A stretch of 30,596 bases of DNA from Beroe ovata (Eukaryota; Ctenophora; Nuda; Beroida; Beroidae): positions 115,541 through 146,136 of the forward strand of contig CAMPET010000176.1 of NCBI GenBank assembly GCA_946803715.1. Reading direction: 5' to 3'. Shown one piece after another: positions 5,188 to 28,799 of this stretch (position 1 is its first letter; each line of letters starts with the position of its first letter). The position numbers were made by a program, and so were the translations under genes. The notes below the pieces were generated by a model. The model searched no databases, was not told the DNA's origin, and saw only the letters and a list, made by a program, of their open reading frames with translations.

Positions 5188-5456
5188 ATTTTTCCCAAAA
5201 CCAAATGAGATTTGGTTGTTATAGTCCGCAGCATCTGTGCGTTCTTTATTTTAAAGTCTGTGATATGAAAAAGAACGCGGCATGTACGACAGACTGCCGC
5301 CACCTCACAGTAGAAACACTGAAGCTTTTTCTAGTGATGTGGCGGCAGTCTGTCGTACATGCCGCGTTCTTTTTCATATCACAGACTTTGAAATAAAGAA
5401 CGCTTGATGCCGCGGACAAAAACAACCAAATCTCATTTGGTTTTGGGAAAAATATC
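5188..5456. mobile_element. Long-arm fold-back element (MITE-like)
   Basis: Arms of about 110 bp are near-perfect inverted repeats. The left arm runs from about 5189 to 5305, the right arm from about 5340 to 5455, with a loop of about 35 bp. The outer ends are TTTTTCCCAAAACC and its complement, followed by a palindromic subterminal ACCAAATGAGATTTGGT. Both strands therefore carry nearly the same apparent ORF, which is a by-product of the palindrome. No transposase is encoded, so mobilisation would be in trans. Target-site duplications are ambiguous in the AT-rich flanks. Confidence 0.75.
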
Positions 5457-6344
5457 ACTATTTTTCAATGAGTAAACGTTGGGCCAACCGGACACTAACT
5501 TCGGATCGTTAAGTTTGTGTGGCCTACATCAACATAATTTTCGGTCAATAAGTCAACAATTTGGAAAAGTTTCCCATCATAGATTTCTCGTTTGAATGAA
5601 GAAGTGTGTCAGATGTAGGAGTAATAGTATGCACTGTGCACCGAGCTCTGAGCAGTTCCAATGCTGCCAGAACAGTAAACTATTTTTTCAGGGTCGGAAT
5701 GGTATATTGTTTTCCTTCAGACATGTGCCAATGGTCAACGGACATAAAATGAGCTATTTCTAGCCATATACCAGCGTTGCTGGCNCAACCAAATCTCATT
5801 TGGTTTTGGGAAAAATATCACTCTTTTTCAGTAGGTTAAACGATCAGATCGTTATTTGCAAAGCCTATATACCGACATGATAATAATTGCATTATTTTAG
5901 ACAATGAAAGATTAAAAATATTAAAAATGTTCCCATCATAAGATTCAAAGAAAAGTCCTTACACTTGCAGTTGCTGAAATAATTTTCCCGTCAGCATGTC
6001 GGGACCTTTGACAATAAAATGATTTAATCGGTACTGTTTCAACATAATATCCAGGATAAAAGCTAAGGTCACAGTGCAAGATCACAGTGTAAGATTCTTT
6101 GTTGTGGGCGGGGACTGGTTGATGTAGCGGTGTGTAATGAACATCACTGCAACAGGCAGTTAAAACGTAGCCATCAACTTTGGTAACGGGGTCGAAACTG
6201 GAAACTGCCCCGGTCCTTGCCATTTATTCATATTCTATATCTAATCGATATCATATCATTGGTATATTGTTTTCCCTCAGACATGTGCCATTGGTCAACG
6301 GACATAAAATGAGCTATTTCTAGTCATATACCAGCGTTGCTGGC
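5423..6344. repeat. Two versions of one locus joined at a gap
   Basis: The gap at 5785 is flanked by crossed similarity. Sequence just after it (from 5786) matches sequence starting at 5423, including the right end of the fold-back element. Sequence just before it (about 5699-5784) matches 6260-6344. Thus 5423-5784 and 5786-6344 are two diverged versions of the same interval (362 and 559 bp), placed end to end. Unmerged alleles are the simplest reading. A true tandem duplication is the alternative. Confidence 0.6.
5952..6223 (-). CDS. Hypothetical exon, unrecognised
   Basis: An ATG at 6223 opens a 90-codon frame that ends near a GT donor-like site (AGT|GTAAGG, near 5952). The composition is balanced and Cys/Tyr/His-containing rather than repeat-like, but I recognise no family. 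It lies in the part of the post-gap version (5786-6344) that has no clear counterpart in the pre-gap version, so it may be an insertion. No upstream or downstream exon was identified. Equally possible is a chance ORF. Confidence 0.25.
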
Positions 6345-6811
6345 TGTCCTCGCAAAGAGTCACACTCATCATAGGATTAGCCACTGCACAGCTACATAGT
6401 GACTGTATAGAGCCTTGTCTCCCACGGTATAAATAGGTATAGATATATTTTCTCATATATGTAGGTACTAGGTGAGCCTTGTCCGCCTGCAAACAGATGA
6501 TTGTGGTAAGCACGAAGTACAGAGTAACCAATACCGCGAATACATAATCATCATGTCAATTTGCAATCACTCATCACTCACCTTGACATGGACACATGCC
6601 CACCAATGGTAACAGCAAGTATCGATGTTGCTGGTGGACGTTGACACTGGGCAGGAAAAAACTGAAGTGTTAACGGTGCAAAATCGCTCAAGGTAAGATC
6701 TATAAAAGGGGAGAATAAGTTAAAAACAGACAACATTCATGAATCATCTCTATGATATTGATAAGGTCAAAAATACTTCAAGTACTAGTAATAGTGATCA
6801 GGTGTTAACTG

Positions 6812-9800
6812 TTAATTCATGGCCGAGAAGGCATTGACAGAACGAATGGCCATCAATCTATACAAAGGAATGGAGCTTTGCTCCCAACTATAATGACTCC
6901 ATGACCTAATGAAGCATTCCGCATTGAGCAGACTGAACACGCCACAGTCGAACTTGTTCTGTTGGCGCTGAGACTCACCATTGATGAACTGGAATTCTCT
7001 CACCTCGAGGCTAGGACGTGACCAATGAAAAGTGGATGAGTGAGAAGCCCTTACATGTTGTCTGAAATTATTAATGAATTCAATGAGGAAAGCACACCGA
7101 TCAACTAATATGTCCTCAGGCACATCCCGACCAGAGTCGAACATGGTCACTGATTTTTGCCCCTCCCGTTGGTCTAGGATGAGCAGATACCAGTGACCTT
7201 CTGCATTGTCGTTGCAGAAGTTCATGATAACCTCACTAGCCAAAGGATCTCCTGCAACATTAATGCTGTTAGACACTGCTTGGGTGTTTTCATGAGGCAA
7301 TGGTTGTGAGTAATGGACTTCAGTGTGAGTAGTGTTGATGTAATCCGTGATGTAAGTGTTAGGATGGTGCTTGAAGAGGAAGCGTGCGTATGGTGAGATG
7401 AAGTGAACTGATGGAGCTGATGCGATGGATGATGAGAGGTTTCTGAGATACATCCCATAGATGTTCATGAGATCACTGCTGAGCCACTTTTGCCTGGTGT
7501 GATTGGCTATGCCGAATGGATCCGGCTGCAGCTCAATAGCAATGCGTCTCACGAGAGCATCAGACTGGCGATCACAGTATGGTATGATTGATGTGTGATA
7601 GGTGTTGATCATGGACTGTTGTGATATGTGTTGAAGTATGGTGGTGCTATCAGAACACAATAAAGCAAGACGCGTGATTTCTTTGACACTCTTTGATACG
7701 CATATTGGGATTTGAATGAATGATTGTTGTGATGATTGGTGGGGTTTTGCGGGGCTCTTGTGTTTATCCTGCGGACATAAATCATTTTTCATTGAACAAA
7801 ATACAATATTTTCAAGATTATATCCTAATTTCATAACTTTTCCTGAAAATCTCAACTGAATATGGCAGTGGAAACACTCCTTGTGATACAAAGCCCTTTG
7901 AAACTGCTCTAAAGTTTTCAATAACAAAGAACGAAAAATTTCTACTTCAATATATTGAAGATTAACCCTCAGTCCGCTATTTCCTTCAGAGGTACGGAGC
8001 TTCCCTTTCAAAAAATTCTTATATACTGCGATAAAATCATCAACTAAATCTCTACATTCACCACAAGAAAGATTTTTCCTAGCATAATTTAACAATTTCA
8101 ATAAATCACATATGTATTTCATATTGAGAACAAGAGGCTGTAAGGACTCTGTAGAGGGAGTATCAATATCGTCTACAGGAATTGACCCAAGATTACCACG
8201 TTTGGATCCATCCCTGTTTTGATATGAAATGTTCACCACCTCCTTCTGATTGCTAGGTATTCTAAGTGATGAACACTCGGTACTAAGCAATTCAGACAGG
8301 AACACAATAGCTTGATTATTCAGTCTCATAGTCTTATTACATTCAACACACGTTTCTGAGCCATCATGAGGAGCAATCGAATTTCTGAAATACCTCAGAC
8401 CCTTCAACACAGCTTTTTTGTGACAGTTCTTACACAAATACCCCCTACACCTAAGATTATCAATGTTTTCCATGTTTTGGAGCTGTGCACTCACTAGCGG
8501 GTGATCGCAATTCACAGCCATGGTAGCTTTCCCTTTCCACGTCTTCTTTTGAGGGACTGAACACCAACAACAGCATGATTCATTAAGTCTATGATTTTGA
8601 TATGATCGTTTCAGTTTCAGCGCAACTCTAGCAGTGTTTGTTAGGTCAATGGATTTGAAATTAATGAGTGCATGTCTGCTACCAAGTTTCCATGTAACAC
8701 GTGTTCTGATATCCCGCATCTTTTCACCACACTGATTACAAAGACTCCTGGCCGCAGCCAGTCTACGAGAATAGTCCAGTACCATGTGCAGCAGTGCAAA
8801 TTTCAGTTTATCTGATGGCAACTTCAGTCCTGATATCACCCCTATGTCATGATCACTGAGTTCTACAAAGTTAATCTCATCGGTTTTTGGCCATTGTTCG
8901 ACACTTCTACATCTATTCCCCTGGCAACTATCATTCACTGCCCCTCCACCCGACAATTTACGATTTCTCCCAGTACCAGCCTGTGATCGTGTGATGTCCA
9001 TCTCTGGAACGTCGGACTGATCGTTTTCTGATGATCCGCTGTCTGATGGACAACACTCGTCTGACGAAACTGCTGGCGGATCATCTGACACCGTAAAGGA
9101 AAGTGCTGAACTAGACGAGGACAAACATGCCATACTGTCATCAGACANATTGATGAGTGCATGTTTGCTACCAAGTTTCCATGTAACACGAGTTCTGGTA
9201 TCCCGCATTTTTTCAAGACACTGATTACAAAGAGTCCTGGCTGCTGTGAGTCTACGAGAATAGTCCAAAACCATATGCAGCAGTGCAAATTTGAGTTTAT
9301 CTGATGGAAATTTCAGTCCTGATGTCACCCTTATGTCATGATCACTGAGTTCTACAAGATTAATCTGATCATCAGTTTTTGACCATTGCTCGACAATTAC
9401 ACCTCTATTCCCCTTACAACTATCATTCACAGCCCCTCCACCCGACAATTTACGATTTCTCCCAGTACCAGCCTGTGATCGTGTGATGTCCATATCCGGA
9501 ACGTCGAACTGATCGTTTTCTGATGATGAGCTGTCTGGTGGATAACACTCGTCTGACGAAGCTGCTGGCGGATCATCTGACACCGTGAAAGAGAGTGCTG
9601 AACTAGACGAGGACAAACATGCCATACTGTCATCAGACATGAAAACATCACTGCTGTCATTGTCATCCTGGAATGCGTTAGAGCAGTGAGGAATATCAGC
9701 AGAAGGCATTGATACTAACTCGTCCGTGCTTGGCGGGTCAGCTGGCTGTGTGGTAGCCTGACTATCATCAATGTCATCAGGGGGGAGTAAATCAATAGGG

Positions 9801-11521
9801 TTAGCAGGGATAACTACATCTTTATATAGGGGGTTATTGGCTTTCAGCCATACTAGAGCGGTATGTATTTTTACTACAGAAACTAGACGCTGCCACACAG
9901 CCCTATCTTTCTTAGGTATACCGTGCAAAACAATGAATTCATCAGGATCAACAAGTTTAGTTGGCCTATCCCCAAACAATTCCTTAATAGTAGAGTCTAG
10001 AGGAGACATTATGTGAACTGCAAACCCCTTAAGCTTATCCATACGAATACTATACGGTAAATTAGCCCCTACTGCTGACACTTTGAATATACTTTGATAA
10101 CACATAGCTATATGAATGAATATTCTCTCAAAATCATTCAAATTTTTGATACAATCGGGAAGTAGCCCAGTATCCATACCATTAATTTTTGATATGGTCG
10201 GAATCTTATCCCTACTGAATTCGACTGAACATGCACGACAAATTTTCAGTCCAATTAGGGTTTTTACTGGCGCCTCACCCCTCACAATCACACGCTCATG
10301 ACAGTTGAGATACCTGAACAAGCTCTGCCATGCTGAGTTGTGAAGACTCCTCCTCCTGGATGTGATGGTCTCGATGTGGGCGTCGTCGACCAACTTATCA
10401 CAGGAGACACATGGCGTCCTGGGGAGATTTGAGTTACATTCCTTGTAGAAATCGAGCAAATGTTTCCCATATTTTTGTGCAAGAGTTTGACGGTTAACTA
10501 TAGAATTAGGACGCTGAACATCAAATATCTTCGTAGGTTTTTCTGGAGGAAGATAATTAAGTAGTTTATACAAATATGCAAAGTCCCCACATGCAACTGC
10601 TGCATCAAAGTCTGAAATTAATTCGTTAATATTCTTTAGATCGCTCAGAATATCGTATAGCTTCCTAAGATTGCTATAGTGAGGGTACAGTTTCCTGAGG
10701 AGAACCAGTTTAGATGTGCAGCCGTTCACACCACTAAAACATTCAGAGGGATGATTTCTCTTGTCGACAGTTAAAAGGTATGGTTGTGAAGATGCTACAG
10801 TACACTTATTGATCTCATCAAGGAAAGAACGAATGTTTTTACGACTCACCATTTTAGCTTCCTCAAATAACTCCAGTATACCTTCTACTTCACCTGGTTT
10901 AGCCGGAATACAGTTCTTCACACAAGGACTAATGACATCTCCCTCTTCAAGACCTGAATCTACATGAATATTTTTAGTCTTTTTAGTTTTAGTTTTAAAT
11001 TGATACTCTGTCATACCCCAACGATAGGAAAATTCAGGGAAATATGGCTCCCAACCCTTAGCGTGACAAGCATCCCCCAGTGCAGCATTAGTTTTATCCC
11101 CCTCAGCTGATAAGGCTACCTTTGCAGAAATTTCCCCACAATAAACATTCAACCGATGAAGGGTATTGTAAACGCACTGTACCCATCGATCCCGCCTTAG
11201 AAGAATATCATTAACTAAGGACCGAGCTAGGAAATTTGTCTTAAACCTGTCCCCGTACCCATCGAAACTTTTGCCCCCTGAGTAATTTTTCAGTAGATTA
11301 TCGATATCCCCATACTTGAATAGTGCACTAGATATGATAGCAATAGCCCGAGTTTTGTACATTATCCTAGTTTTAGACTTGACGAATTTCTTATTCTTGA
11401 ACAGCGCGCGGTAACTTCTCTGGTCGTTGTCAGATGGTAGGGAGGGTAGGAAGAGTCGTTTCCTCGAAGTATTGATGAGTCTTTCCGCTTTCTTGTAGGC
11501 ACCCACAACGTACGCAGGAAC
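6812..11521 (-). CDS. Exon 9: DUF6570-like region and Ulp1/C48 cysteine protease
   Basis: The terminal exon is 4710 nt (ACTGTCCAG|GTTCCTGCG to stop at 6812). Residues about 1066-1268 carry two CxxC pairs followed by KIPTISKINGM, an L-x-x-F-E-R hydrophobic stretch and KGFAVHIMSPL. This order (C-x2-C, P-x-x-S-x-x-N-G, L-N-x-x-E, KG-x-x-V-x-x-x-P) resembles DUF6570 of Helitron-associated proteins. Several more CxxC pairs follow at 1.6-1.9 k residues. The C-terminus is a Ulp1-type protease: EGHWYLLILD (His2138), VTMFDSG (Asp2157), QQNKFDCGVF (Gln2216, Cys2221), all catalytic positions present. Such domains cleave SUMO or related conjugates. In transposons they are of unknown role. An n at 9148 interrupts the sequence. 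Confidence 0.85.
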   Translation of the reverse strand, partial: VPAYVVGAYKKAERLINTSRKRLFLPSLPSDNDQRSYRALFKNKKFVKSKTRIMYKTRAIAIISSALFKYGDIDNLLKNYSGGKSFDGYGDRFKTNFLARSLVNDILLRRDRWVQCVYNTLHRLNVYCGEISAKVALSAEGDKTNAALGDACHAKGWEPYFPEFSYRWGMTEYQFKTKTKKTKNIHVDSGLEEGDVISPCVKNCIPAKPGEVEGILELFEEAKMVSRKNIRSFLDEINKCTVASSQPYLLTVDKRNHPSECFSGVNGCTSKLVLLRKLYPHYSNLRKLYDILSDLKNINELISDFDAAVACGDFAYLYKLLNYLPPEKPTKIFDVQRPNSIVNRQTLAQKYGKHLLDFYKECNSNLPRTPCVSCDKLVDDAHIETITSRRRSLHNSAWQSLFRYLNCHERVIVRGEAPVKTLIGLKICRACSVEFSRDKIPTISKINGMDTGLLPDCIKNLNDFERIFIHIAMCYQSIFKVSAVGANLPYSIRMDKLKGFAVHIMSPLDSTIKELFGDRPTKLVDPDEFIVLHGIPKKDRAVWQRLVSVVKIHTALVWLKANNPLYKDVVIPANPIDLLPPDDIDDSQATTQPADPPSTDELVSMPSADIPHCSNAFQDDNDSSDVFMSDDSMACLSSSSSALSFTVSDDPPAASSDECYPPDSSSSENDQFDVPDMDITRSQAGTGRNRKLSGGGAVNDSCKGNRGVIVEQWSKTDDQINLVELSDHDIRVTSGLKFPSDKLKFALLHMVLDYSRRLTAARTLCNQCLEKMRDTRTRVTWKLGSKHALINXSDDSMACLSSSSSALSFTVSDDPPAVSSDECCPSDSGSSENDQSDVPEMDITRSQAGTGRNRKLSGGGAVNDSCQGNRCRSVEQWPKTDEINFVELSDHDIGVISGLKLPSDKLKFALLHMVLDYSRRLAAARSLCNQCGEKMRDIRTRVTWKLGSRHALINFKSIDLTNTARVALKLKRSYQNHRLNESCCCWCSVPQKKTWKGKATMAVNCDHPLVSAQLQNMENIDNLRCRGYLCKNCHKKAVLKGLRYFRNSIAPHDGSETCVECNKTMRLNNQAIVFLSELLSTECSSLRIPSNQKEVVNISYQNRDGSKRGNLGSIPVDDIDTPSTESLQPLVLNMKYICDLLKLLNYARKNLSCGECRDLVDDFIAVYKNFLKGKLRTSEGNSGLRVNLQYIEVEIFRSLLLKTLEQFQRALYHKECFHCHIQLRFSGKVMKLGYNLENIVFCSMKNDLCPQDKHKSPAKPHQSSQQSFIQIPICVSKSVKEITRLALLCSDSTTILQHISQQSMINTYHTSIIPYCDRQSDALVRRIAIELQPDPFGIANHTRQKWLSSDLMNIYGMYLRNLSSSIASAPSVHFISPYARFLFKHHPNTYITDYINTTHTEVHYSQPLPHENTQAVSNSINVAGDPLASEVIMNFCNDNAEGHWYLLILDQREGQKSVTMFDSGRDVPEDILVDRCAFLIEFINNFRQHVRASHSSTFHWSRPSLEVREFQFINGESQRQQNKFDCGVFSLLNAECFIRSWSHYSWEQSSIPLYRLMAIRSVNAFSAMN

Positions 11522-14500
11522 CTGGACAGTAATGAGGATTAATTGTATGCTTAGCATGATTAATGAAACGATTGATTCAATAACAGTAAGAATTTGAGTG
11601 AGATCGAGACACTTTCTAATTCTATTATACCTATTGCGAATAAATTGTGGCCTCTTATATACTTACATTATGCGATCTTATAGCCTCCATGGCGTCTTTG
11701 TTCGAGACTCGGGGAGCTGCAGCAGATCCGGGCTGGTTGTTCTCCTCCTGCTCAGTCTCCCCACCAGTCTCTACAGCACAGTCTCCCCGCACCTTCCCAC
11801 TCACTGCAGCATGCTTCCCCGCTTTCTTCACAGCCTTCTTGTACCACACCAAGTTCTTCCTATACTTCTGCTGCCTAGCTTTGGCGTTCTTGGACAGATT
11901 ATACTGCTCACGGGTCTTCCTTCCCTTCTCACTGTCTTCATATCTTCTGATAGCACGTCTACTTGCTTCCTGCCACGCTTTCGTCTTCATGTAGTTCTCC
12001 ATCCCCTTCTTCTGCGCTATCGACCAGCCCTCTGTCTTCATATACTCCCGCATTGCCCGCTTCTGAGCCTCCATATAACTATCTGTCTTCTTGTATCTGT
12101 CAAAAACTCTTTTCTGTGTTTCCATGTACTTCTCTGACTTCAAATAATTGATGACTGCACTAGCATGAACAGATCTCCACTTCTCGGATTTCATGTATCT
12201 GATCATAGCACGCCGATGCGACTCAGCCTTCTTATCAGACCTTTCATACTTCCTCTTCGCCTCCTTCGTTTTTGCTGCACCGCTTCCACTTTCTCGATAC
12301 TTCTTGTTGCTCCTAGTGACACTGTCTTTCCCAGCTGGCGTCTTCCTCCACTTAGCCATGTATTCTGCTCGCGACTTGGGGGTAGTCGGAACATCAGCTG
12401 CAGTATCCTCTGCGTGTGTGTCATCACTTCCGGACTCCATATCTTCATGATCGTCAGTCACCGTCGACACCCTTCTGGTCTTGGTCTTCCTCGCAACATT
12501 TCGAGCCTTTCCTCGTCCTCTACGTCGTCTCTTTTTGGGAGTCTCTGGCACAGGCCCTTCTTCTTCACCAGACTCCTCGTCACCTCCACCAATCAGTACG
12601 AGGCGTGACCTGTAATAGGTATCATTATCACACAATTATGATTGTTTTTCTTCACTTTATATTATCAAATTTTCATAGACGAGCTGCACCCTATTAAATT
12701 TTTCCTTGAATATCGGTAGCACAGAGATCAGAAAAGGTGGACTGCCAAGGTAGACTTGGTACGTCTTTACTTATGAGTTATGAATGATTTACATCAATTG
12801 CAGGTGCCGTTTTGTATACCTAACGAATCTTTGAGTTGTATCACTCACCAATTATGTGATGTTGAAATGAAGGAAGCCTGCTCAGGGTCGTAGATGTGGC
12901 ACCCTGAGCCTCTGATTTCTGAATCAATTAAATAATCATTTTTAGTAGAATTCTACTTGTTGACCGATTAGATAAGCTGCTCTCTGCATATCGTTGATAA
13001 TTACTATCGATTCAAGAGATCTCATATAACTCCGAGATTCAGAGTTTGTTTTTGAAATTCTTACTTGTAGTGCGTTGGCAATGGTTCTTGGTCTTAGGCA
13101 CGGTTTTCCATCCATCAGAAGTGTAGCCAGAGCTGGTGGACCTTTCTGCATCAATCTTCATCCCACGTTTTAAGTTGTGCCCTATGGAGAAGTGCATGGT
13201 ATTGGATTTTATAGCTATTAAAGTTGCTTAATCGAAAGAATTGACAATAATAGGTACATATATAGTAATTGATATTGCCCAAAAATTGAAATGCTATCTG
13301 TGTAATGTGTATGACATATCTATGTTCCTTTGTGTTTTTTTCTACATTCAATTTCAATTAAGGTCTTGAACACTAACCTTGACTTGCGATGCTCTCCTTC
13401 AGTAATGCGGTGGCTGCAGTCACCTCAACTCGTGTCCCCCTGACCACGAACTTCCTGATCGTCCCATGAGAAGCTGGAGCTAGAGTCACTGTAGTCCCGG
13501 TCTCTGTCATGATCCTCTTGATGTTTCGTCCTCTCTGTATTATCATCATTATATGGACGTAATACTAATTAAAACACAGTAATTTCCTTGCTTATCGGCG
13601 ATAGTCCTGTCTTCCGCTTCGCAGCTTGCATCAAATGGGACTATACTCTATAGCATCACAAAGCAACAATTCTCACCTTTCCAATTACAACTCCACACAC
13701 TGACTCTGGGACAGTCAAACATTCCTCAACAGAAAAACGCTCCCTTTTCATGACACAGTTGACCGGCGCTGATTTGATCATCTTGATAGTCTCCCCTGAG
13801 TGATTATAATATAAATATATTTGATGCAGTATGTAAAGAACATTATCGTCAGTGATTCGCACTAAAATTCAAGTGTTGTCAAGAGTTAATTCAAGCGTTG
13901 TCATAATATTCATATGTTAGTGTTACACTAATATCTATATTATACGGATACCTGGACAAGGCACCCCGGCTGACAAAGCTGCAGTCAAATACACCGGCTC
14001 CCTGTCCGGCTCCTCCACCTCCCTCTCCCAGTTCACCAGCTCCGGGTTCACCACCTCCATCTTCGTCGTCTCCACCTCGTAGAACAGCGGATTCGGCATC
14101 ACGTAGTAGTAACCTGGATCTTCTCTCCCTGAAACATGCCTCATGATTTCGTCCCTGAAAATATAGCTGGATTTAGGTGCGGGATGTAATCCGTCCTTCT
14201 TGAAGAGGCTGATGTTCACCTCCCCGTCAGGACCAGCAAATTTGTCATACAACCTGATTACCCGGCCCGGATACTCCCTGTGCAGCATACGGTTGAGGGT
14301 CACTGCGTGATGGTTGGGGTGCTGGGTTGTGGGCACATTGTCCCGGGTCCAGGATTTGCGAGGCAAGACCTCACACACATCCACGGTAGCGTCAGGGTTG
14401 AGCTCCTGGAGCTCAGCCATGATACCGTGGATGTCCGTGACGGTCTCGTCCTCATCCGTATACCCCAGGTCATTGGCCCCCACCAAGATGACCACGTGGT

Positions 14501-14954
14501 CCCAGTCACCACGGAATTGCTCACGATGTCCCCTAACCTGTATGTGCAATATGGTCATCATGCTTCATCAAACACGCTATAACATATTAAAGGCAAATGT
14601 ATACCAGGTCATGGAATGAGAAGCAATTCACACTACAGACAAAAAGCAAATTCATCACGCACCTTCTGCAGTAACCGGTGGGACGTGATTCCCGGATAGG
14701 TCAATGTAGATCCGGTCTCAAAACGAATGTGTCTCGAGATCGAGTCTCCGACAATTAACACCTGGCGTAAGTGAAACTTTATGGAATTAGATTGAAATAA
14801 GTAGTGTTGAAAGTTTGAATTTAAGGAATTAATGTCATCACTACCAGGTACTACTGATACTATTACTAAAAAATGTCATAGCGCATGCTGTTACAGTACA
14901 AAAGGATCATTTCGAAATATTTACCTCGTGGCTTGGAGCAACCAAGGAGTTCAT
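6812..14954 (-). CDS. Nine-exon gene: SGNH esterase-KH-repeats-DUF6570-like-Ulp1 protease
   Basis: Whole-gene model. Coding exons are 14954-14925, 14761-14663, 14537-13952, 13795-13677, 13534-13378, 13145-13065, 12918-12849, 12609-11667 and 11521-6812. Every intron starts GT and ends AG, phases match at every join, and the sum is 6795 nt, giving 2264 aa plus stop. Domain order is SGNH/GDSL hydrolase (about 11-165), KH domain (about 257-328), basic NLS-like cluster (405-427), 17-aa repeats (about 485-605), CxxC plus DUF6570-like region (1066-1268), acidic/Ser linker, further CxxC pairs, and Ulp1 (C48) protease (about 2129-2264). Residues about 1322-1650 contain a duplication straddling the gap at 9148, probably an assembly artefact. 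Helitron-associated proteins are known to carry DUF6570, Y-S-E-K repeats and proteases. The joining with an N-terminal esterase and KH is inferred from splicing. No transposase or helicase is visible. Confidence 0.8.
8661..9639 (-). repeat. In-frame duplication straddling gap at 9148
   Basis: 8661-9147 and 9150-9639 are two versions of the same roughly 490-bp coding segment, with one codon of length difference, on either side of a single n. Both remain open in the same frame. Placement exactly at the gap suggests two alleles laid end to end. Removing one copy (492 nt, 164 codons) keeps the frame and gives a protein of about 2100 aa. The versions differ by a noticeable number of amino acids, so recent paralogous duplication is not excluded. 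Confidence 0.7.
11667..12609 (-). CDS. Exon 8: NLS-like region and 17-residue tandem repeats
   Basis: This 943-nt exon runs from TATTACAG|GTCACG to CATAAT|GTAAGT. After a Gly/Glu-rich stretch comes a strongly basic cluster (PKKRRRRGRGK, residues about 405-415) likely to be a nuclear localisation signal. Then seven near-consecutive 17-residue units begin with Tyr (Y-x-K-[ST]-[ED]-x-W/Y-x4-[QK]-[KR]-x-[AM]-x-x), followed by two 13-residue units. Lys/Glu/Arg-rich repeats with a Y-x-x-S-E-K-G core are familiar from proteins of Helitron and DUF6570 context in invertebrates. They should be helical and may bind nucleic acid. The long open frames on the opposite strand are shadows. Confidence 0.8.
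12849..13145 (-). CDS. Exons 6 and 7: linker (81 and 70 nt)
   Basis: Exon 6 is 13145-13065 (GATGCAG|AAAG to CTACAA|GTAAGA). Exon 7 is 12918-12849 (GATTCAG|AAATC to AATTG|GTGAGT). They encode a Ser/Thr/Lys-rich linker and then a short segment with GCHIYDPEQASFI. Exon 7 has an alternative acceptor 7 nt downstream (start 12911). That one leads to an early stop in exon 8, while 12918 keeps the frame open into exon 8, so 12918 was chosen. These are the least certain exons because they have no recognisable domain. Confidence 0.6.
13378..13534 (-). CDS. Exon 5: second half of KH domain
   Basis: This 157-nt exon (ATACAG|AGAGG to CAAG|GTTAGT) continues the KH domain. RGRNIKRIM completes IGKRG-x-N-I-x-x-I, followed by TETGTTVTL, the strand RKFVVRGT and a closing helix with A-x-x-L-L. 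Spliced to exon 4 it gives a full-length type I KH domain with an intact GxxG loop (Gly277-Lys-Arg-Gly280), so binding of single-stranded RNA or DNA is expected. The frame was not evident from single ORFs because the exon is flanked by stops. Confidence 0.8.
13677..13795 (-). CDS. Exon 4: first half of KH domain
   Basis: This 119-nt exon (ACTCAG|GGGAG to GGAAAG|GTGAGA) encodes residues 239-278 and ends exactly inside the KH GxxG loop, with VPESVCGVVIGK as its last residues. The preceding E-x2-L-T-V-P matches the first KH beta strand. The rest of the domain lies on exon 5. The reading frame is fixed by the phase-1 entry from exon 3. Confidence 0.8.
13952..14537 (-). CDS. Exon 3: SGNH hydrolase blocks III and V
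   Basis: The acceptor ...CACATACAG|GTTAGG and donor CCAG|GTATCC bound a 586-nt exon. It encodes VILVGAND (block III: Gly63, Asn65) and KKDGLHPAPKSS (block V: catalytic Asp158 and His161). With Ser17 in exon 2 this completes the Ser-Gly-Asn-His set of a potentially active esterase or acylhydrolase. Residues about 165-238 are a linker with acidic and Pro/Tyr content and no recognised fold. SGNH domains also occur in ORFs of some LINE (CR1/L2-like) and Ngaro-type retroelements, but no reverse transcriptase accompanies this one. Confidence 0.85.
14663..14761 (-). CDS. Exon 2: SGNH hydrolase blocks I and II
   Basis: This is a 99-nt, phase 0-0 exon bounded by ...CGCCAG|GTG and CAGAAG|GTGCGT. It encodes V-L-I-V-G-D-S (block I, nucleophile Ser17 of the model protein) and the block II glycine in a YPG context (Gly34). 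GDS near the N-terminus with a Gly 15-20 residues later is the SGNH/GDSL esterase pattern. Exon 3 supplies the remaining catalytic blocks, which confirms the join. Confidence 0.85.
14925..14954 (-). CDS. Exon 1 of the large gene (start codon)
   Basis: The ATG at 14954-14952 opens a 10-codon exon ending GAG|GTAAAT. Joined in phase 0 to exon 2, the frame runs straight into the VLIVGDS motif of the esterase, so the start falls about 14 residues before the catalytic block, as is usual for cytosolic SGNH hydrolases. There is no signal peptide. This start was too short to appear as an ORF and was found by working back from exon 2. Confidence 0.7.
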
Positions 14955-15126
14955 GATAGTTTATAACTGACTCGGGCTTTATCAAGATATAAACTGATAT
15001 CGATATGAGATTGGTGCTCTGAAAAAAGCAGCAAGTCTGCGACAGTGAGAAAAGTAGATAAAGCGATTGGGTCGTTAACACTACAATAGTTGTAAACGGA
15101 GAGGGAGTTAGGGAGTTAGATACTCC

Positions 15127-15133
15127 CTTTATA
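15127..15133 (-). promoter_or_regulatory. TATA box of the large gene
   Basis: On the minus strand GGTATAAAGGGAG lies about 175 bp before the ATG at 14954, leaving room for a 5' untranslated leader of roughly 145 nt. The match to the TATA consensus is full length. It sits just below the E-box cluster, as expected for a core promoter. Confidence 0.55.
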
Positions 15134-15173
15134 CCTACCTAAGCTGCGTTGCGTGATGAGTAACGGACTCCAA

Positions 15174-15416
15174 CACGTGACTCATCCACCCTCATCTCAA
15201 GTTTCTGCTCCCCTCCATTAGCATGACCACGTGATTCATGTTCAAGCTTCCACAACACGGGGTGACACAATACTCAGGTCACGTGATGTAAATCAAGATG
15301 CAATATGCATCAAATTATAAGCCTCATCATATAATGACACGCACCAATTAGTGATGTTCCTCCTAATTATTCAATTACCCGACCAATCAAGGTTTGACAC
15401 ATTACACTTGCACGTG
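15174..15416. promoter_or_regulatory. Cluster of four CACGTG E-boxes
   Basis: CACGTG occurs at 15174-15179, 15228-15233, 15280-15285 and 15411-15416, each followed by A on the + strand. The first continues into TGACTCA, an AP-1/bZIP-type site, and the second into TGATTCA. The cluster is 40-285 bp upstream of the TATA box. CACGTG is the core of bHLH-ZIP factors (MYC/MAX, USF, MITF/TFE). One copy per 4 kb is the chance expectation, so four in 243 bp is notable. Confidence 0.55.
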
Positions 15417-15734
15417 ATTATACCGCCCTAAGCTTCAGGGAGTATACTCAATACTGTCTTCTGTTAAAGTGTTATTTAGAAGAGTTGAGCCAGATAAACA
15501 TTTAGGTAAACACCTATCGGTCAGACAAAAAACAGTTCGGCAAAATTGTCCTCAGATGTTATGCTGAAATTTTCACTTAGATAGTTCCAATTAAGACGAC
15601 ATATGATGCCCTAAATCAATCAAATTCACTGGAAAGCGGTTTTCTTGGATACCGACTCGAGACTATGATAATTGAGCTGATCGTAAATGGAGTCAGAAAG
15701 ATTCGATTTGTCTCCTACAATCATTAGAATTTTT

Positions 15735-15845
15735 GGTCGGTCTTTTGTCTGGCGATGCTAGACCGCTGATGAGAATAAGTTTGCGCCGCGCGCGCGCAAA
15801 GCGAAATTCTCGACAGGGTCTATCATCGATCGACTAGTCGGTCTT
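15735..15845 (+). repeat. GC-rich MITE-like copy
   Basis: This contains GTCTGGCGATGCTAGACCGC, a CG-alternating run and AATTCTCGACAGGGTCTAT. The same blocks occur in the same order at 28105-28205 with a 12-bp insertion. It is a short non-coding dispersed element upstream of the large gene's promoter. Confidence 0.65.
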
Positions 15846-16262
15846 GTTCAATAATCTCTATGATACTTGTTCGCCAATTATTCAATTAACTAATTAGATC
15901 ATTGAATAAATATCAATCATAAGATATCAGTATACTGAACCGAGGTATCGTATCCTGTTGAAAAGCTTGGCTATCTGCTTTATATCAAGAAATATTAACG
16001 CTAATTGGGTTAATTAGGTAATCAGGTATAACTAGATATTCGGAAGAGTAAAACCGCATCATCAGATAGCTCAGAAACGAAGCACGGTATCTTATCCCGT
16101 TGAAAAAATTAATCTATATGTTTTAAATCACGAGATATTCACCTTAATTAGGTTAATAAGGTTATCGACTAATTAGTTTTGGGACCATCATTAATATCAT
16201 AAAATTGAACGTACAATTGGAAGCTAATGATAGAATGACTGTGGCATATTTCCTTCAAAATN

Positions 16263-17912
16263 CTCAGGTGCTGAGATAGAATAGAGTAAGTTAGAAAACG
16301 GGGTTAGATGACATGATATTCAGTATTCATTGTTATTCCACACGACTATCACTACCACACTGAACTGTGAACATTTTAAGTTACTGATAGTGTGCCTACT
16401 TGTAAGCATAGTCACAGAAGCAGAGCAATATGAAACTGTACTGGGAGAGCTGCGTCTCGGGAAACGGGGCGCAAGTCTGCTCTTCCCTCTCAGCTCGTGA
16501 CTCTATCCCCTTCCACTTCTCCTGCTTCCGTCTCATTACAGGACATAATGAGTTCTTGAAGCTCCTGATTCGCTAGGTCTGTTTATTCCATTATCAGGTC
16601 AATGGAATTCCAATCCTTTTGGAGGTAGATAATTGAGCGTGGGTTCTTTCCCAGAGTTCGTTAATAGATTTCGCACAATAATCTTATCACCACTTAATCC
16701 GGGGTTTCCTATTCGCAGGAGGTAAATTAATGACGGCAAATAATCATTGCCTATGCATCAAGTTATTTGTTCCTAGAATTTGGGAACCAAGAAAAGCTTT
16801 TATGGAAAATGCAAGGCACTGATTTTAGGAAATATTGGAAGTTTAGGAGTGATAGCAGGCCTGAATAATAGTGCTGAGCCAGGGGGCATAACATCCCCCC
16901 GACCATTGCAGAGCCGTCCCGGCGATAGGATCCCCCGTTGCATCAAGAAAATCATTATCAGTCCTTCACTATTCCTCGGAGTTAAGCTATAGGAGGTATA
17001 ATATTGTCTTCTTGCTGCGCAGAATTCATTTATACCATGTGAGATATGCTTCTGTATAACAGAAAGGATATCAGAATCCATGAGCCTTTCTTCGAGGAAT
17101 TGTCACATCTAAAATATTATCTCAATATTTCCTTATCTTTGATATCCTATTTTGGAAAATTTTTTGGTCTTAGAATAATTTAATGAGCTCATTTTTCTTG
17201 AAAAAATGTTTTTTAGACATATCTTATCTTATTTACCTAAAGGTTGTAACCAAATACTAATACATACTATTGTTATTTGGTTTGTCTAACAAAACTTTTG
17301 TCCTTCTCTTCTTGGACAATAGAATGTTTTAAGAGCATACATTTGGTTTTTTTACGAGATTTTTAGCACAAAATGTTGTATGCTCTTATAACATTTAAAA
17401 ATAGTACTTCCAAACATAGTACTTGAAAAAAAAAACATATGCCCCAAAAACAGTTCAATGCAACTCAAATATTTCAAAGCTGCATGTGTAGTACACATGC
17501 AAAATGACTTGTACTTATTATCACTTTGTAGTGTACTGTGATAATGAGTAGAAGTAATAAGTATATAATATCATGGTCATTGTAGTATATCATGACATTG
17601 CACACTCTATAACAATGACAGCAGTTCTTTTTTTAGCGTTATTATTTTTTTTATATTTATATTTTTTTTGTCAATCACACAGATTTTTATGAATGGGGAT
17701 GTTTCCATATTTATATGTTATATGAGTTATGATAATATTAAAGAGTATATATTTTGGGAAATCACAAACAGCATAAACAAAAACAGCAGCAGATGAAAAT
17801 TCTGTAGCAGACAGCTTATCATCTTTTGTTTTTTTTCTTTTCTTTTGTATTTTTTATTTATTTTTTTTCAATCACACAGATTTTTTTGTTTTGGGATGTT
17901 TCCTTAATCATA
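16263..17912 (-). repeat. LTR-like dispersed family, copy A
   Basis: This begins at the gap at 16262. 16263-16676 matches 24181-24586 and 26040-26495. 16598-16775 and 17125-17360 match 28256-28660. 16848-17715 matches 29382-30253. A segment at about 16780-17120 is absent from the 28.3 kb copy but present in the 29.4 kb copy and in the old copy near 677-960, so it was either deleted there or is a nested insert. A hairpin lies at 17331-17385. Near 17640-17910 a T-rich block with AATCACACAGATTTTT is tandemly repeated. No protein domain is visible. Confidence 0.65.
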
Positions 17913-17978
17913 GTGTTAATAGCATAATAATATTGCAAATGTTTAGCAAAATATTCTCAGCACAAATAGCAAAACCAG

Positions 17979-18154
17979 CTAATAATGAGGTTCTGAGGCT
18001 CGTTGGGGTGTTACCTCATCTGGTACCTCGTTATATTCATACGAAGTCGGCATTACCATTGTTACCATTGGTATCGGTGGCGGCATCCTGCATGGTTTTA
18101 TTGGTGGAGGAGCACCATACTTGTAATCAGGCACATATGTTGACTGCGTCGGAG
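17979..18154 (-). CDS. Possible last exon of Gag-like gene
   Basis: An open frame on the minus strand starts after an acceptor-like CACTAG|CTCCG and ends at the TAG at 17981-17979. It encodes about 57 residues rich in Pro, Met and Tyr (for example GAPPPIKPCRMPPP). It joins in phase 1 to a donor-like CGTCAG|GTTACC at 18412 near the end of the Gag-like ORF. The composition looks like a real protein tail rather than chance, but both splice sites are only moderate. Confidence 0.35.
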
Positions 18155-18382
18155 CTAGTGCTACTTAATTTGCAGAGACAACATAGTCCGGAAGTGGTGG
18201 TAAAATATACGTGTTATTCACCACATGTTCAATATTGTGGATATTATATAAACACGTGGTATGCTTTGGTGTTTGGATAATACTGCACACAATGACCTAC
18301 GTCCTTTCCTGCAGTAAAGTCGATGAATTTACTAACTGGTCAGAAAAGCCTGCTGGGCTATCCGTTTTTACCTTGATAAAAG

Positions 18383-19339
18383 TTATTCATTGTTATTATA
18401 GTACTGGTAACCTGACGGCCTCCACTGAGATGGTCCCGAATACCTTGAGTTATAGTTTCGATCACGGTCATGGTAATAATTCGGTCTGTAGTACCTATTT
18501 AGTCCCACACTTCTACGATTTCCGTGGTACTGGTAGGTCTCATTCCGACCTGGTGCAACTCCTGGTGGCCCTTCACTGTTTTGCACAACTACGGCAGTGA
18601 GTAGATCAATGACTTTGTCGAGCTTTTCCTCAGACTGGCTAACTCCCCTACTGTCTGAAGGTATCTGCTCTACGTTGTTGACCGTTGGTGGCCGGTGTTT
18701 CAAACTTGAGGACCAGGAATCGTCCATGAGGTTAGGATCGGTGGAGGTGGAATTCACTTCTGATTGTTGGTTGATGCTGGCATTTTTGCAATTCAAGAGA
18801 TTCACTGCCAAGTCCAGCAATTGCTCGTTGTTAAGTGCGTCATGTTCTCGCAACCTGGTTGAGATCTGTGAGTCCTGGAAGTTTGCTACGAAAACATCCC
18901 TCAGGTTGGCATCCCTGACCTGCTGGTTATCGGGGTATGCTTTCTTTGCAAGATGCCATAGTTTTGAGTAAAAACTACGGACGTCTTCATGTCTCCCCCT
19001 CAGTGTTTTTCGGAGCTTAGCCTTATAGTCCTCCCTATTCAAGCGTGCAACTCCCATTTCGCGCCGCAGCACCTCTACAAGTCCGTTGTATGTGATATCG
19101 TCCGCCAAATGCCTCTCAATGAACGCCATGACCTCATCGTCCAGTGAATTTATCAGAATGTGCGGAATTTCTTCAGGCCTAGCACCAATCGAATTTGTAT
19201 AGGCCTGAAACCTACGGAGATATGTATCGAGGTCCATGTTCAGTTTGAGTACCGGTGGGGCCCTGATAAATTGGAGTCCCTGCTGTTGATGGCGCTGCCT
19301 GGGCGGTAATGGAGCTGGTTGGTCTGCTTGATCGGCCAT
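18383..19339 (-). CDS. Gag capsid-like ORF (retroelement-derived)
   Basis: The ATG at 19339 has a good context (CCAAATGG) and opens 318 codons. After a Pro/Gln-rich start, residues about 25-190 look like a Ty3-type Gag capsid: an initial LKLNMDLDTYLRRF, helices around LINSLDDEVMAFIERHL, a Lys/Arg helix before LRKTLRGRHEDVRSFYSKL, and the final LLDLAVNLL. The C-terminal 60 residues are Arg/Tyr/Asn-rich, suggesting RNA binding. There is no zinc knuckle here; those lie in the ORF immediately upstream. No protease, reverse transcriptase or integrase follows, so it is either a domesticated gag or a remnant. It is intact over its whole length. Confidence 0.7.
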   Translation of the reverse strand: MADQADQPAPLPPRQRHQQQGLQFIRAPPVLKLNMDLDTYLRRFQAYTNSIGARPEEIPHILINSLDDEVMAFIERHLADDITYNGLVEVLRREMGVARLNREDYKAKLRKTLRGRHEDVRSFYSKLWHLAKKAYPDNQQVRDANLRDVFVANFQDSQISTRLREHDALNNEQLLDLAVNLLNCKNASINQQSEVNSTSTDPNLMDDSWSSSLKHRPPTVNNVEQIPSDSRGVSQSEEKLDKVIDLLTAVVVQNSEGPPGVAPGRNETYQYHGNRRSVGLNRYYRPNYYHDRDRNYNSRYSGPSQWRPSGYQYYNNNE

Positions 19340-19522
19340 TTGGTACGTCTAAAACATGATGATAAAATGTGTTAGCTCGTATATTACTAAACCTTAAAGT
19401 AGTATGTTGTTCATACATAAAGGTATGCAATGAATATTGAGAGTGACTAGGAATTCAATCAAAACGCCAAAAACCCCTAAAAACAAAGTTTGTTTACTTA
19501 TATAGTAGCCAGGCATTACAAC

Positions 19523-20326
19523 TCAGCCAAAAGCGAAGGAAGGATCCAAAGGGGTATAATCTACCATAAGTCGAGTACCTTCGGGAATGGGGTTTGCAAC
19601 ATCCCTTAAAATACCGTCTATGATAGATCTCAGATTTCTTATGAATCCTCTGTCTTCGTAAATTGCCTCGTACTTGGAGGACTTAACTATCTCGAAGAAG
19701 TTCATGTTCTGGTGGGCGAACATACGAGATTGATAGGTGAGAAGAGCCTTCAATACGCGAATTTCAGTTTCGCAGGTCTCACGCTGTTCCTCGAACCGTT
19801 GGAGACCTGATGGCTGGGCCCCCTGAGTCAAATGGCCGCTTCTCCCCATGTGGGGGCTCGTGCCCAGACTGACCCTATGGTATTTCAAAAGACTCACGTG
19901 GCCGATTCTCATTCTGAGAGATAGATCGGCAACACGGTACATGAGAATATTTTTGCCAATCGGTGAAGGAACCCGGTCAAAGATGGGCTCACGGCTGATG
20001 AATTCGTTTACCACACTGAATGAACTGTTAATGCTAGGCATTTGAAGTTTCTTAACAACCACTTGCCCGATGATTTGGTTCATTAATCTACAACACACCC
20101 TCAGGGATATGAGACTGCTGATATCCATGGGATTGCAAAGCAATTCCAAAATCCGGAACCACATTGAATAGTTCAGATACCCAGTCAAGGGTTCCCCTTT
20201 ACAGGGACAGTCGGCTCTTCCGTGTGCACCTCTGCAGATGGTACAGTCCCGAGTGGTACCTTGCGCTACTGGGCAGGCGTTTGACATGTGTGCTCTACTC
20301 TTACACACGTAACACTTTCGCGTCAT
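19523..20326 (-). CDS. Zinc-knuckle protein with F-box-like segment, 267 aa
   Basis: The ATG at 20326 is preceded by an in-frame stop. Residues 5-18 form a CCHC zinc knuckle (CYVCKSRAHMSNAC, C-x2-C-x4-H-x4-C). A second, slightly shorter one follows (CTICRGAHGRADC, C-x2-C-x3-H-x4-C), then a CPC. Residues about 55-100 (MWFRILELL, LRVCCRLMNQII) resemble an F-box helix bundle, although this is weak. The remainder is helical and unrecognised. The stop lies 184 bp before the Gag-like ATG on the same strand. A donor-like ATG|GTAGAT at 19565 and an acceptor TTTTAG|ACG at 19349 would fuse it in phase to the Gag-like ORF. Zinc knuckles normally sit after the capsid, so this order is unusual. Confidence 0.65.
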   Translation of the reverse strand: MTRKCYVCKSRAHMSNACPVAQGTTRDCTICRGAHGRADCPCKGEPLTGYLNYSMWFRILELLCNPMDISSLISLRVCCRLMNQIIGQVVVKKLQMPSINSSFSVVNEFISREPIFDRVPSPIGKNILMYRVADLSLRMRIGHVSLLKYHRVSLGTSPHMGRSGHLTQGAQPSGLQRFEEQRETCETEIRVLKALLTYQSRMFAHQNMNFFEIVKSSKYEAIYEDRGFIRNLRSIIDGILRDVANPIPEGTRLMVDYTPLDPSFAFG

Positions 20327-20339
20327 GTTAGCAACTGGC

Positions 20340-21225
20340 TATTGCGAATAGTAATCAGTGGTATATAAACAAGCATGCCAATTGTAGCACACGGTAGCAT
20401 ATGGTACGTAAATGATATTCAAGTAGGTGTAAAACTATCTTGATTGAGTATTACCTATACATCAGTCTTACTCGAGAAATTTTGTACAATGCACTATTAA
20501 CGTGTACAACACACCGACCGAATACCAGGATAGTGACAGTGATTGTGATATGAATTATACCCCTACACCTTCTCCACCAGTTTAGTCGGTCACAAAGGAC
20601 CCATGGCTCGGATAGGATGAGTAAGTGCCGATAGTACAATATTTCTATAACCAGATGCCACCTGCGCCACCGTCTGTGTATCCGTAACTGCAGTACCCAT
20701 GGCTGTGGAACTGTGGTAAGAGAATTTTCAAAATAGTCATCGGACCGTATGTTATGATAGGTTAGTTTCAGACGGACATAATTCTGGTAGAGCTACTTTC
20801 CTGTATACAATTCTACACGAAAATAAGATTTTACTCATCATGCCGCCTATATTCGCACCACTTATACCAGCGAAAACTAGAAAGAGACCACACCCATAGC
20901 TGTAACGGTGTCTGCGCATGACACACGCTATGCCGTCACGGGGAGTAGGGCGGACTGTACTGTTGTTGATTGATTGTCAAGTTATTGTCCAAAATGTAAA
21001 TACCGGCCGGTAAGAGAGTAGTAGGAGTCATATAGTCATGTCCGTTAGTCAAATCTGTTATCCGCACCCGCTCTCAATGATAGGGCCTAGTCACTTCCCA
21101 GATTACTACGGATATGCATGAAGAATCACGGTATGTGCGCTTCTGTATTTCTCTGTTAAATACTTCACTTCTCGCTTTGTCGTATTCTCATATAACTCGT
21201 AATCGCATTTTGCACTCTATAATAA
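20340..21225. other. Upstream region, no gene seen
   Basis: No coding region is supportable. A TATATAAAC-like block lies at about 20361-20370, close to the zinc-knuckle ATG, but no promoter layout is convincing. The remaining sequence is moderately AT-rich and unrepetitive. Confidence 0.4.
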
Positions 21226-21228
21226 AAA

Positions 21229-21305
21229 TCTCACATCTTCATATTCTCACATCTTCATATTCTCACATCTTCATATTCTCACATCTTCATATTCTCACAT
21301 CTCAT
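21229..21305. repeat. 16-bp minisatellite
   Basis: About five head-to-tail copies of CACATCTTCATATTCT are seen, the last truncated (CACATCTCATATTCT). Downstream, to about 21540, a looser repetition of ATTTCACTTTC continues the theme. The + strand frame that runs through here is a product of the repeat. Confidence 0.85.
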
Positions 21306-21331
21306 ATTCTGATCACATCTTGGGATAACAC

Positions 21332-21402
21332 GATATATGCCTCGAACGAAGCGAGTGGCATATATCTCTATTATTCACCGAAGCCGAAGGCTGAGTTGAA
21401 TA
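21332..21402. repeat. Pair of hairpins, one with GAA triloop
   Basis: GATATATGCC (21332-21341) pairs with GGCATATATC (21357-21366). Immediately after, TATTCA (21372-21377) pairs with TGAATA (21397-21402), enclosing AGCC-GAA-GGCT (21382-21392). The GAA triloop closed by C-G also occurs at 30330-30401 and, in complement, at 2409-2423. Confidence 0.6.
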
Positions 21403-22418
21403 GTACAAGTTACACCATTCCTTGCATCTCACAAATTAGGTCGACACATATTTCACTTTCTCCTAGATTTCACTTTCGTATATACTTCACTTTCGCATAT
21501 ATTTCACTTTCGCATTCAAATATAACATTTCACTCCCACTTCTCACAAAGCGAACACTTATCCATTCAATTCGATATACTTGTCGTTTATTTAAATCGTA
21601 TCTCGCACTTTAAAACGTTTCTCAAAATATCTCACATCTCAACTCCCAGAGCGCACATTCTACTTAGGACGTGTCGGTATGGCCATACCTTGAGCATGCA
21701 TAGAGGCATAAGATTACCATAACATACGGAATTATGCAAGTTAACATCAATAAGGTATATATCCACAAGTGCATGATAGGTACTGCATTTACGGCCGAGT
21801 CGAAGAAGATCACAGATGGCGCAGGGTGACAGTATAACTTGGCGGGAACGGCAGGTATGCATGATGCTCGAGCAAGATGAGTCTACATATCCGTGACTAA
21901 TGTTGCACGTTTTCTACACGGAGTAATACACGGTACGTATCCGAGACACGCAAATACGACACTGCTGGAGACTCGTGGTGGCGAAGGTGGATACCAGGGA
22001 GACAACCTACACTAGTCTTTCCAGACTAGATACTTAGGAAGTGTTATAGCGCTGAATTTTTGTCCAGATCCCAGAAGAAAATGAGTTATCAGCGTATTTA
22101 AATCCCGGAGAAAATCAGAAAATCCCAGATGGAAATGAAATGTTGAAAACATAAGCGAAATGCGAGCAAGACAGCAATCGACTTACGTCTGGTAATCACT
22201 ATCTTTTTCTTTCTTCTCTCTAGATATCCGATCTTTACCGTCGTCTCGTTTTCTCCATGTCGTCATTCTCCTCTCCTTCTCTGAGTCTTGACAATTCTCC
22301 GCATTCCGGGTCTTGCTGGCTTTTTCCGCGTTGTCAATCTCTCCAGGCCGTTGTCACAACATCTGGCCGTCCGAGTCAGGTGGTCTATCTCATCCGCTGT
22401 TATCATGCTGCAGCTCTA

Positions 22419-22904
22419 TCATCGTGCATTGTTTCCCCTCATATCCTCGCTCGAGCTCCTTCTGGAAAAGCCACTTGTTCCTGGATTTTCTTGGCTTATC
22501 AACATGTCACTGTCATGATAATAGAAACAATCTTCCTCAAAAGGGCAGTAACCTGCCGCCAAGTTTTTGCACGGAATCTTGGATACTCCCTGTTTATACT
22601 TCTCTATGATGAATCTCTTTTCGTGACTAGTGACAGGAAACACTCGAGAGGGAATAACAGTCACACTGGTTACTCGGCAAAATGAGCACTTCCATCTCAG
22701 GTGCCTCGTGATCTCGTCACGAACATCTTGCCTCCACTGCATGATACAGGGTAGACAGAAAGGATGCTGACAGCCAGACAGCAAACCAAATCATCGCTTT
22801 TCCTCACTGGGGATAGAGTAACAGATGTGGCACGTCTCTCTTTCTGCTATTCGTCTGCTCTCTAGCACCGTCCACGGCACAAACTCTCTTGCGTTGGGGT
22901 TCAT
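22419..22904 (-). pseudogene. Makorin-like RING/CCCH ORF with in-frame TGA
   Basis: From the ATG at 22904 the frame reads 37 codons, including CHIC, the first RING cysteine pair. It meets TGA at 22793-22791, then continues in the same frame as FGLLSGCQHPFCLPCIMQW, CSFCR and VIPS, and a CCCH finger (C-x7-C-x5-C-x3-H: CKNLAAGYCPFEEDCFYYH), ending at 22419. The order RING, then R-x-FG-x-L, IPS, then CCCH is diagnostic of makorin E3 ligases. The residue lost to the stop is usually Arg (RRFG), so a CGA to TGA transition is the likely lesion. No introns interrupt it and it is much shorter than full makorins, which suggests a retrocopy or fragment. A sequencing error could also explain the stop. Confidence 0.75.
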
Positions 22905-23392
22905 AGCGTTTGTTACTGTCGGGGACTATTGTGTTAGTGTCATCGATCCAAGTGCGTAGTCACTACTTTATGCGGCCAATTCTTCATGGATATGAGTGAC
23001 AATGAAGTGAGTCATGATTGTCAGCATTGGCCGGTGTGTTTGTTTCTACACAGTACGCTTAGGTGGAATTAATCCTAGTATTTGCACTACCTATGGCACC
23101 CATATTCTCACACAGTTACTTAGTTACACGGTAGTCTTATACAGTTACACAAAACACTGTAATGTGCTCAGTACGTAATTGTATGCTAGTCTGTTTACAC
23201 ATGCGGAGGGGTACAGTGCCTGCGAGCCACTACGATCACAATAACTATAGTATAAAAGAAAATTAAATAGTATAAAGAATAAAAATGTAGGTTCGAATGC
23301 CGTGCAAAAGTGGGGTAAATGTAAGATAAAAATAAAGTGAATAAACAAATGAAAAAGATGACGTGAAATGGAATCAAATTGACCAGAAAAGG

Positions 23393-23412
23393 GAGCCCCG
23401 CATCGGGCTCCA
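23393..23412 (-). other. Primer-binding-site-like sequence
   Basis: On the minus strand, five bases after the LTR-like end, TGGAGCCCGATGCGGGGCTC begins with TGG. Its pattern TGG-N-GCCC-N5-GGGGCTC is that of a tRNA-Lys primer binding site. This placement is the textbook arrangement 3' of a 5' LTR and fixes the orientation of the element as minus. Confidence 0.5.
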
Positions 23413-23417
23413 AAACA

Positions 23418-24586: not shown

Positions 24587-24587
24587 N

Positions 24588-26495: not shown

Positions 26496-26496
26496 N

Positions 26497-27693: not shown

Positions 27694-27694
27694 N

Positions 27695-28798: not shown

Positions 28799-28799
28799 N

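Follow-up and report, generated by a model that had tools for sequence, protein, structure and literature searches.

Introduction

Helitrons replicate by rolling-circle chemistry, in which one DNA strand is nicked and peeled off. We analysed a gene on a 30,596-nucleotide stretch of Beroe ovata DNA (the window), which lies on contig C176 of a 77.8-Mb genome assembly; names such as C25 and C494 denote other contigs of the same genome. The gene is predicted to encode an SGNH esterase, a KH domain, a DUF6570 module and an Ulp1 protease in one protein. Judged from domain content, the family to which it belongs is Helitron, and the window copy has lost Rep and helicase. We read it as a semi-autonomous Helitron, a Rep/helicase-deleted derivative moved in trans, with a probability of roughly 60%.

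Autonomous Helitrons and Helentrons were compared with this family. As in those elements, Rep and helicase are found in one protein, and some of those elements also have a ubiquitin-type cysteine protease (PMC6431247, PMC9741609). Helentron-type Helitrons carry OTU and VTD proteases, and the VTDs of zebrafish Helitrons cleave ubiquitin (PMC9741609). Unlike Helitrons and Helentrons with OTU, VTD or endonuclease domains, the present family has a protease of the Ulp1/C48 type, and an SGNH-KH-basic region is predicted to be spliced in front (PMC6431247, PMC9741609). The fish gene texim likewise encodes an SGNH hydrolase linked to Helitrons and related to CR1 esterases. In contrast to the window gene, texim is a separate gene (15 exons in teximYa/b) with the Helitron located 3' to the gene or within the final intron, and the available text of its description mentions no fusion with KH, DUF6570 or Ulp1 (PMC4021074). 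Among CR1/L2 retroelements, the esterase of ZfL2-1 has enzymatic activity and binds phospholipids (PMC3905857).

The rice "mother element" Mothra is a semi-autonomous Helitron in which an accessory gene is kept and RepHel is absent. The window copy resembles it in keeping the accessory part after the loss of RepHel. It differs in that the Mothra accessory gene is RPA-like, whereas here a four-domain protein is found, for which the ratio of non-synonymous to synonymous substitution rates (dN/dS) was measured (PMC4683698).

An Ulp1 protease within a transposon protein is also not without precedent. Mutator, like Ginger, has a DDE transposase and not a rolling-circle Rep. Ulp1 occurs in Mutator and Ginger transposons, as in the present family, and Ginger differs from it in using a DDE transposase (PMC2836005). 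Our search of the Helitron literature for SGNH, Ulp1, C48 or SUMO protease found no RepHel protein with Ulp1 or SGNH-KH; subscription papers were partly covered, and absence from print is not shown. A literature search for DUF6570, with the same partial coverage, found no paper. The Helitron kind itself is known, and what would be new is this architecture and a Rep-less derivative of it with signs of selection.

Results

Domains and gene structure

The gene was reconstructed as nine minus-strand exons running from 14954 down to 6812. All borders were GT-AG and the phases agreed, so the single nine-exon frame of the original prediction was recovered. The rebuilt frame was 6,831 nt long including the stop, against the 6,795 nt given earlier. 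The features of the gene were as follows.

14925..14954, minus strand: exon 1, with the start codon
14663..14761, minus strand: exon 2, SGNH block I (GDS, Ser17) and Gly34
13952..14537, minus strand: exon 3, remainder of the SGNH hydrolase (GAND with Asn65; DGLHP with Asp158/His161)
13677..13795, minus strand: exon 4, first half of the KH domain, stopping within the GxxG loop (VVIGK)
13378..13534, minus strand: exon 5, second half of the KH domain
13065..13181, minus strand: exon 6, linker
12849..12918, minus strand: exon 7, linker; the acceptor is uncertain and alternatives exist
11667..12609, minus strand: exon 8, basic region with Y-x-x-S/T-E-K repeats
6812..11521, minus strand: exon 9, DUF6570 module, cysteine-containing middle, deletion junction and Ulp1 protease
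9806..10213, minus strand: DUF6570 (PF20209), Pfam match
6893..7489, minus strand: Peptidase_C48 (Ulp1/SENP) catalytic domain, Pfam match

The four Pfam families expected for this protein were all found above cut-off. Lipase_GDSL_2 (1.3e-9) and KH_1 (4.1e-12) matched the N-terminal 707 residues, and DUF6570 (2.5e-14), a Pfam domain of unknown function, and Peptidase_C48 (5.3e-11) matched the exon 9 frame. The SGNH residues named earlier (Ser17, Gly34, Asn65 and Asp158/His161) were all present in the window protein. The expected His/Asp/Gln/Cys set of Ulp1 was located at His2150, Asp2169, Gln2227 and Cys2233, which we take to be catalytic from the Ulp1 family. The best solved-structure match of the SGNH part was PDB 4c1b (4e-4), the esterase of the ZfL2-1 retrotransposon ORF1 protein and one of the CR1/L2 ORF1 esterases (PMC3905857). 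CR1/L2-type retroelements carry a reverse transcriptase with the esterase, a domain absent from all ten window proteins scanned; no genome-wide search for this domain was made. The gene gave no Rfam match, and its NCBIfam matches were weak ones of KH type, below cut-off. Structure prediction of the N-terminal part of exon 9 with DUF6570 (610 amino acids, 17 sequences) was unreliable (mean predicted local distance difference test score 50.4, predicted template modelling score 0.41).

Related loci were used to examine the splice sites. The GT donor at the end of exon 8 was kept in 10 of 10 covered related loci, C494 among them, after three secondary exon 8 alignments, which were internal repeat matches, had been excluded. 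The AG acceptor at the start of exon 9 was kept in all 15 covered loci; it was unreadable in three of the 18 DUF6570 loci (L005, L015 and L016). Both borders of the KH intron were kept in nine of nine copies examined. The public SGNH proteins P0013 and P0014 continued into the first half of KH and then past the same intron position. The kept exon 8 donor and exon 9 acceptor support one spliced gene rather than two, as had been proposed, and the reading of the window locus as one gene from SGNH to Ulp1 holds at the level of the DNA; its transcript would be spliced accordingly in vivo. As regards introns elsewhere, exons 2 and 3 were not separated by an intron in C224 (L072), and C213 and C494 appeared to have no separate exon 1, its intron seemingly being absent.

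Complete Helitron relatives in the genome

Six loci (C494, C213, C453, C224, C110 and C197) carried SGNH, KH, DUF6570, Helitron_like_N, PIF1 and Peptidase_C48 in one order and on one strand. Exon 8 was recognisable in all six. Within each of five of them, DUF6570, Rep, PIF1 and Peptidase_C48 were reported with one and the same open-frame length (2,418-3,073 amino acids across the five); the frame of C213 was broken by an N. The complete relatives had an HUH Rep domain and a PIF1-type helicase fused to Rep, by which Helitrons are recognised. Helitron_like_N was above cut-off in C494, where an HFH motif and YVTKYVTK were read; HFH and the pattern YVTKYV[TL]K were read in C494 and P0002 only. We take these two motifs to be the HUH and two-tyrosine sites of Helitron Rep. 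Compared with solved structures, the C494 frame matched PIF1s (5.3e-31), Helraiser 7lcc (3.9e-27) and SENP1 (1.5e-4).

The exon 9 part matched nine database proteins. Three of these (P0002, P0008 and P0009; 2,788-2,822 amino acids) carried DUF6570, Helitron_like_N, PIF1 and Peptidase_C48, and the protease of P0002 was placed after the helicase. In the genome, Helitron_like_N was found at 18 places, including other Helitrons and fragments. The Helitron connection suspected in the original prediction was thereby confirmed. Its suggestions of a passenger gene or an unclassified element did not stand, since the complete relatives in the same genome carry Rep and PIF1. A second stretch of PIF1 and Peptidase_C48 was seen directly downstream of the complete C224 copy (C224:24533-26986).

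The SGNH part was also followed on its own. It matched 18 contigs of the genome, the window's own included. Across 17 loci (L019-L035), Ser17 and Gly34 were conserved in 13 of 13 covered loci, and Asn65, Asp158 and His161 in 15 of 15. Stops were present inside six of the 17 matches and several matches were partial, which speaks against the intactness of these copies; the exon 3 stretches showed no stop in the aligned sequence. Of the 16 contigs bearing DUF6570, 14 also had SGNH, upstream of it and strand-matched, and C532 and C513 were without SGNH. An SGNH match was also present on 11 of the 16 Helitron_like_N contigs. In a public protein set, a 330-residue SGNH-KH query found four SGNH proteins, and a 707-residue query scored over residues 1-400 found no relatives. 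Viral contigs searched with SGNH exon 3 and with the exon 9 alignment gave no relatives. The SGNH proteins P0011 and P0012 showed weak similarity to the OSK domain (0.0053 and 0.0022, below cut-off).

Loss of Rep and helicase at a shared junction

No Helitron_like_N and no PIF1 match was found on C176, in agreement with the earlier remark that no Rep/helicase is visible in the window. The alignment of the window with C494 stopped near residue 719 of the compared frame and restarted near residue 2,072. The loss in the window copy was about 1,350 residues, comprising Rep and helicase, and was in frame. The place of the loss was as follows.

7727..7814, minus strand: junction region left by the in-frame loss of Rep and PIF1 helicase, also found in C25 and C532

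Since the complete relatives hold Rep and PIF1 between the DUF6570 and Ulp1 parts, the window copy is an internal deletion of a Helitron. Without Rep/helicase, it is therefore a non-autonomous derivative and not an autonomous Helitron. C25 had the identical junction, and the nucleotides around it aligned unbroken with the window. C532, a fragment at a contig end, also carried the junction. In a tree of the N-terminal part of exon 9, the window and C25 were sisters with support 1.0; C532a (185 residues) and C513 (none) fell under the length limit and were left out.

It was considered whether mis-joined contigs had produced the Rep/helicase gap or joined two halves. The assembly gave some reason for this, because single Ns joined pieces with duplicated ends. 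The clearest case in the gene was the following.

8660..9639, minus strand: 492-bp direct repeat, in frame, with a single N (9148) between its two copies; probably an assembly overlap left unmerged

The segments 8660-9147 and 9149-9639 were 90.6% identical and both abutted the N at 9148. Further single Ns stood at duplicated or mismatched sequence in the window, C494, C213 and C532. Protein segments were duplicated on either side of the Ns in C494 and C213, and two different copies were joined at the N of C532. The single Ns were taken as contig joins with unmerged overlaps. Because the repeat abuts the N at 9148 and the other Ns likewise stand at duplicated sequence, about 164 residues of the protein are probably an assembly artefact. 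Against an artefact at the junction itself, it lay within N-free sequence in the window, C25 and C532. The sequence from SGNH exon 3 as far as the beginning of exon 9 was likewise free of Ns in the window (piece 9149-16261), C224, C197 and C453. The order from SGNH to Ulp1 was covered by overlapping N-free pieces, namely window 9149-16261 and the part of C25 before the N at 7251 of its stretch; other N-free pieces ran from DUF6570 to the junction (C532) and from the middle to Ulp1 (window 5786-9147). An assembly origin of the gap or of the joined halves is thus very improbable. Elsewhere in the window, 16262-30596 was a mosaic of repeated blocks, several of which began or ended exactly at single Ns; for example, 19395-19975 matched 28800-29380 at 98.8%. 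This mosaic is more suggestive of contig overlaps left unresolved than of biological repeats.

Signs of selection on the Rep-less form

The window and C25 were compared over 2,007 codons, with exons 1, 6 and 7, gaps, Ns and stop codons excluded. The dN/dS was 0.24 (bootstrap 0.20-0.28). By part, it was 0.19 for SGNH, 0.32 for KH, 0.25 for exon 8, 0.08 from the start of exon 9 through the end of DUF6570, 0.38 for the middle and 0.37 (0.24-0.62) for the junction and Ulp1. DUF6570 alone gave 0.02, with 2 non-synonymous and 22 synonymous changes. Between the window and C532, dN/dS was 0.06 for DUF6570 and 0.36 for the middle and junction. Because the junction is common to the window and C25, the changes between these two copies should post-date the deletion. 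Purifying selection thus seems to have continued on the Rep-less form, provided that the junction was not a late arrival through gene conversion.

A decaying relic, in which dead deletion copies have gathered few disabling mutations so far, was also considered. In its favour are the loss of Rep and helicase, element ends that were sought and not fixed, and the two stops of C25, which lay at 7220 and 7229 of its stretch, just before the N at 7251. The window frame had none. In a neutral simulation at the same change density, 21.4 stops were expected on average and the minimum in 2,000 runs was 8, against the two seen across both copies. Together with the dN/dS of 0.24, this made a relic improbable.

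Surroundings of the two copies

Just upstream of the homologous region, the window and C25 shared a 46-bp match only, and downstream of it short repeats only. A 2.9-kb window stretch further upstream had no match on C25, and the 910 bases adjoining the element had no C25 match among the matches listed, with 40 of 1,115 candidates scored. On the first two of these comparisons, the two copies sit in different surroundings. A dispersed repeat of about 90 bp was seen upstream of the gene (window ~15740-15840), with at least 74 matches from 40 scored candidates out of 1,115. Immediately downstream of the element lay a 266-bp palindrome (5188-5453), about 90% self-complementary and resembling a miniature inverted-repeat transposable element, parts of which recurred near C25.

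These surroundings bear on another explanation, in which the host recruited the Rep/helicase-less form as one or more domesticated genes, which were duplicated and kept because the SGNH-KH-DUF6570-Ulp1 protein serves some function of the host. In its favour are the low copy number, the 2 against 22 changes in DUF6570 and the purifying selection seen in copies unable to move on their own. Against it are the existence of a third fragment (C532) and the placing of the two copies: their surroundings differ, and their homology is bounded and takes in non-coding flanks, as for a mobile element. Domestication is unlikely on this evidence. It is nevertheless the strongest alternative, since some reason has to be found for selection on a protein unable to move the gene that encodes it.

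Discussion

The favoured reading of the window gene, a semi-autonomous Helitron moved in trans, follows from the precedents for its accessory parts (OTU/VTD, Ulp1, the ZfL2-1 esterase and texim) and from Mothra. The family protein would have the order SGNH esterase, KH, basic Y-S-E-K repeats, DUF6570, HUH Rep, PIF1 helicase and Ulp1 protease. Complete copies would transpose by the rolling-circle route, with Rep nicking one strand for the helicase to peel off. Judged from their families, the esterase and KH may serve the localisation or handling of mRNA or nucleoprotein, and Ulp1 may free host factors or the proteins of transposition of SUMO or a related modifier. In the window type, Rep and helicase would have been lost in one in-frame event with the accessory modules kept, and this type is found at two unrelated places and in one fragment. 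We infer that it stayed mobile after the deletion, with Rep-Hel supplied in trans by complete copies, and its own accessory protein probably still matters.

Several observations weigh against this reading. Only two long copies (the window and C25) and one fragment (C532) have the deletion, and joins at single Ns can be chimeric, as C532 shows. The pairing of SGNH with Helitrons is common and not universal, because five of the 16 Helitron_like_N contigs had no SGNH match and C464, C460, C61 and C8 carried SGNH without a DUF6570 match. Element ends (5' TC, 3' hairpin with CTRR, A^T target, no terminal inverted repeat) were sought around the in-genome copies, as had been suggested, and were not fixed, the copies being few and diverged; movement of the deleted form is therefore not proven. 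A trans-mobilised element would not be expected to need its own coding capacity, unless its protein favours its own DNA or RNA. In addition, the synonymous rate between the window and C25 was uneven, 0.14 at the junction and Ulp1 against 0.24-0.59 elsewhere. Conversion may therefore have carried the junction from one copy to another, in which case some of the constraint may have arisen before the deletion.

These results describe a Helitron protein with, by prediction, an esterase and a KH domain spliced to its front and an Ulp1-type protease at its end, and a natural deletion that splits the accessory modules from Rep-helicase. It is suggested tentatively, at somewhat short of even odds, that a Helitron lineage without Rep and helicase persists on the SGNH-KH-DUF6570-Ulp1 protein alone. 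It would do so as a host gene, or else as a selfish element with borrowed Rep-Hel that still depends in cis on its own accessory protein. If selection truly acts on the modules in the absence of Rep and helicase, their function would be testable apart from rolling-circle replication.

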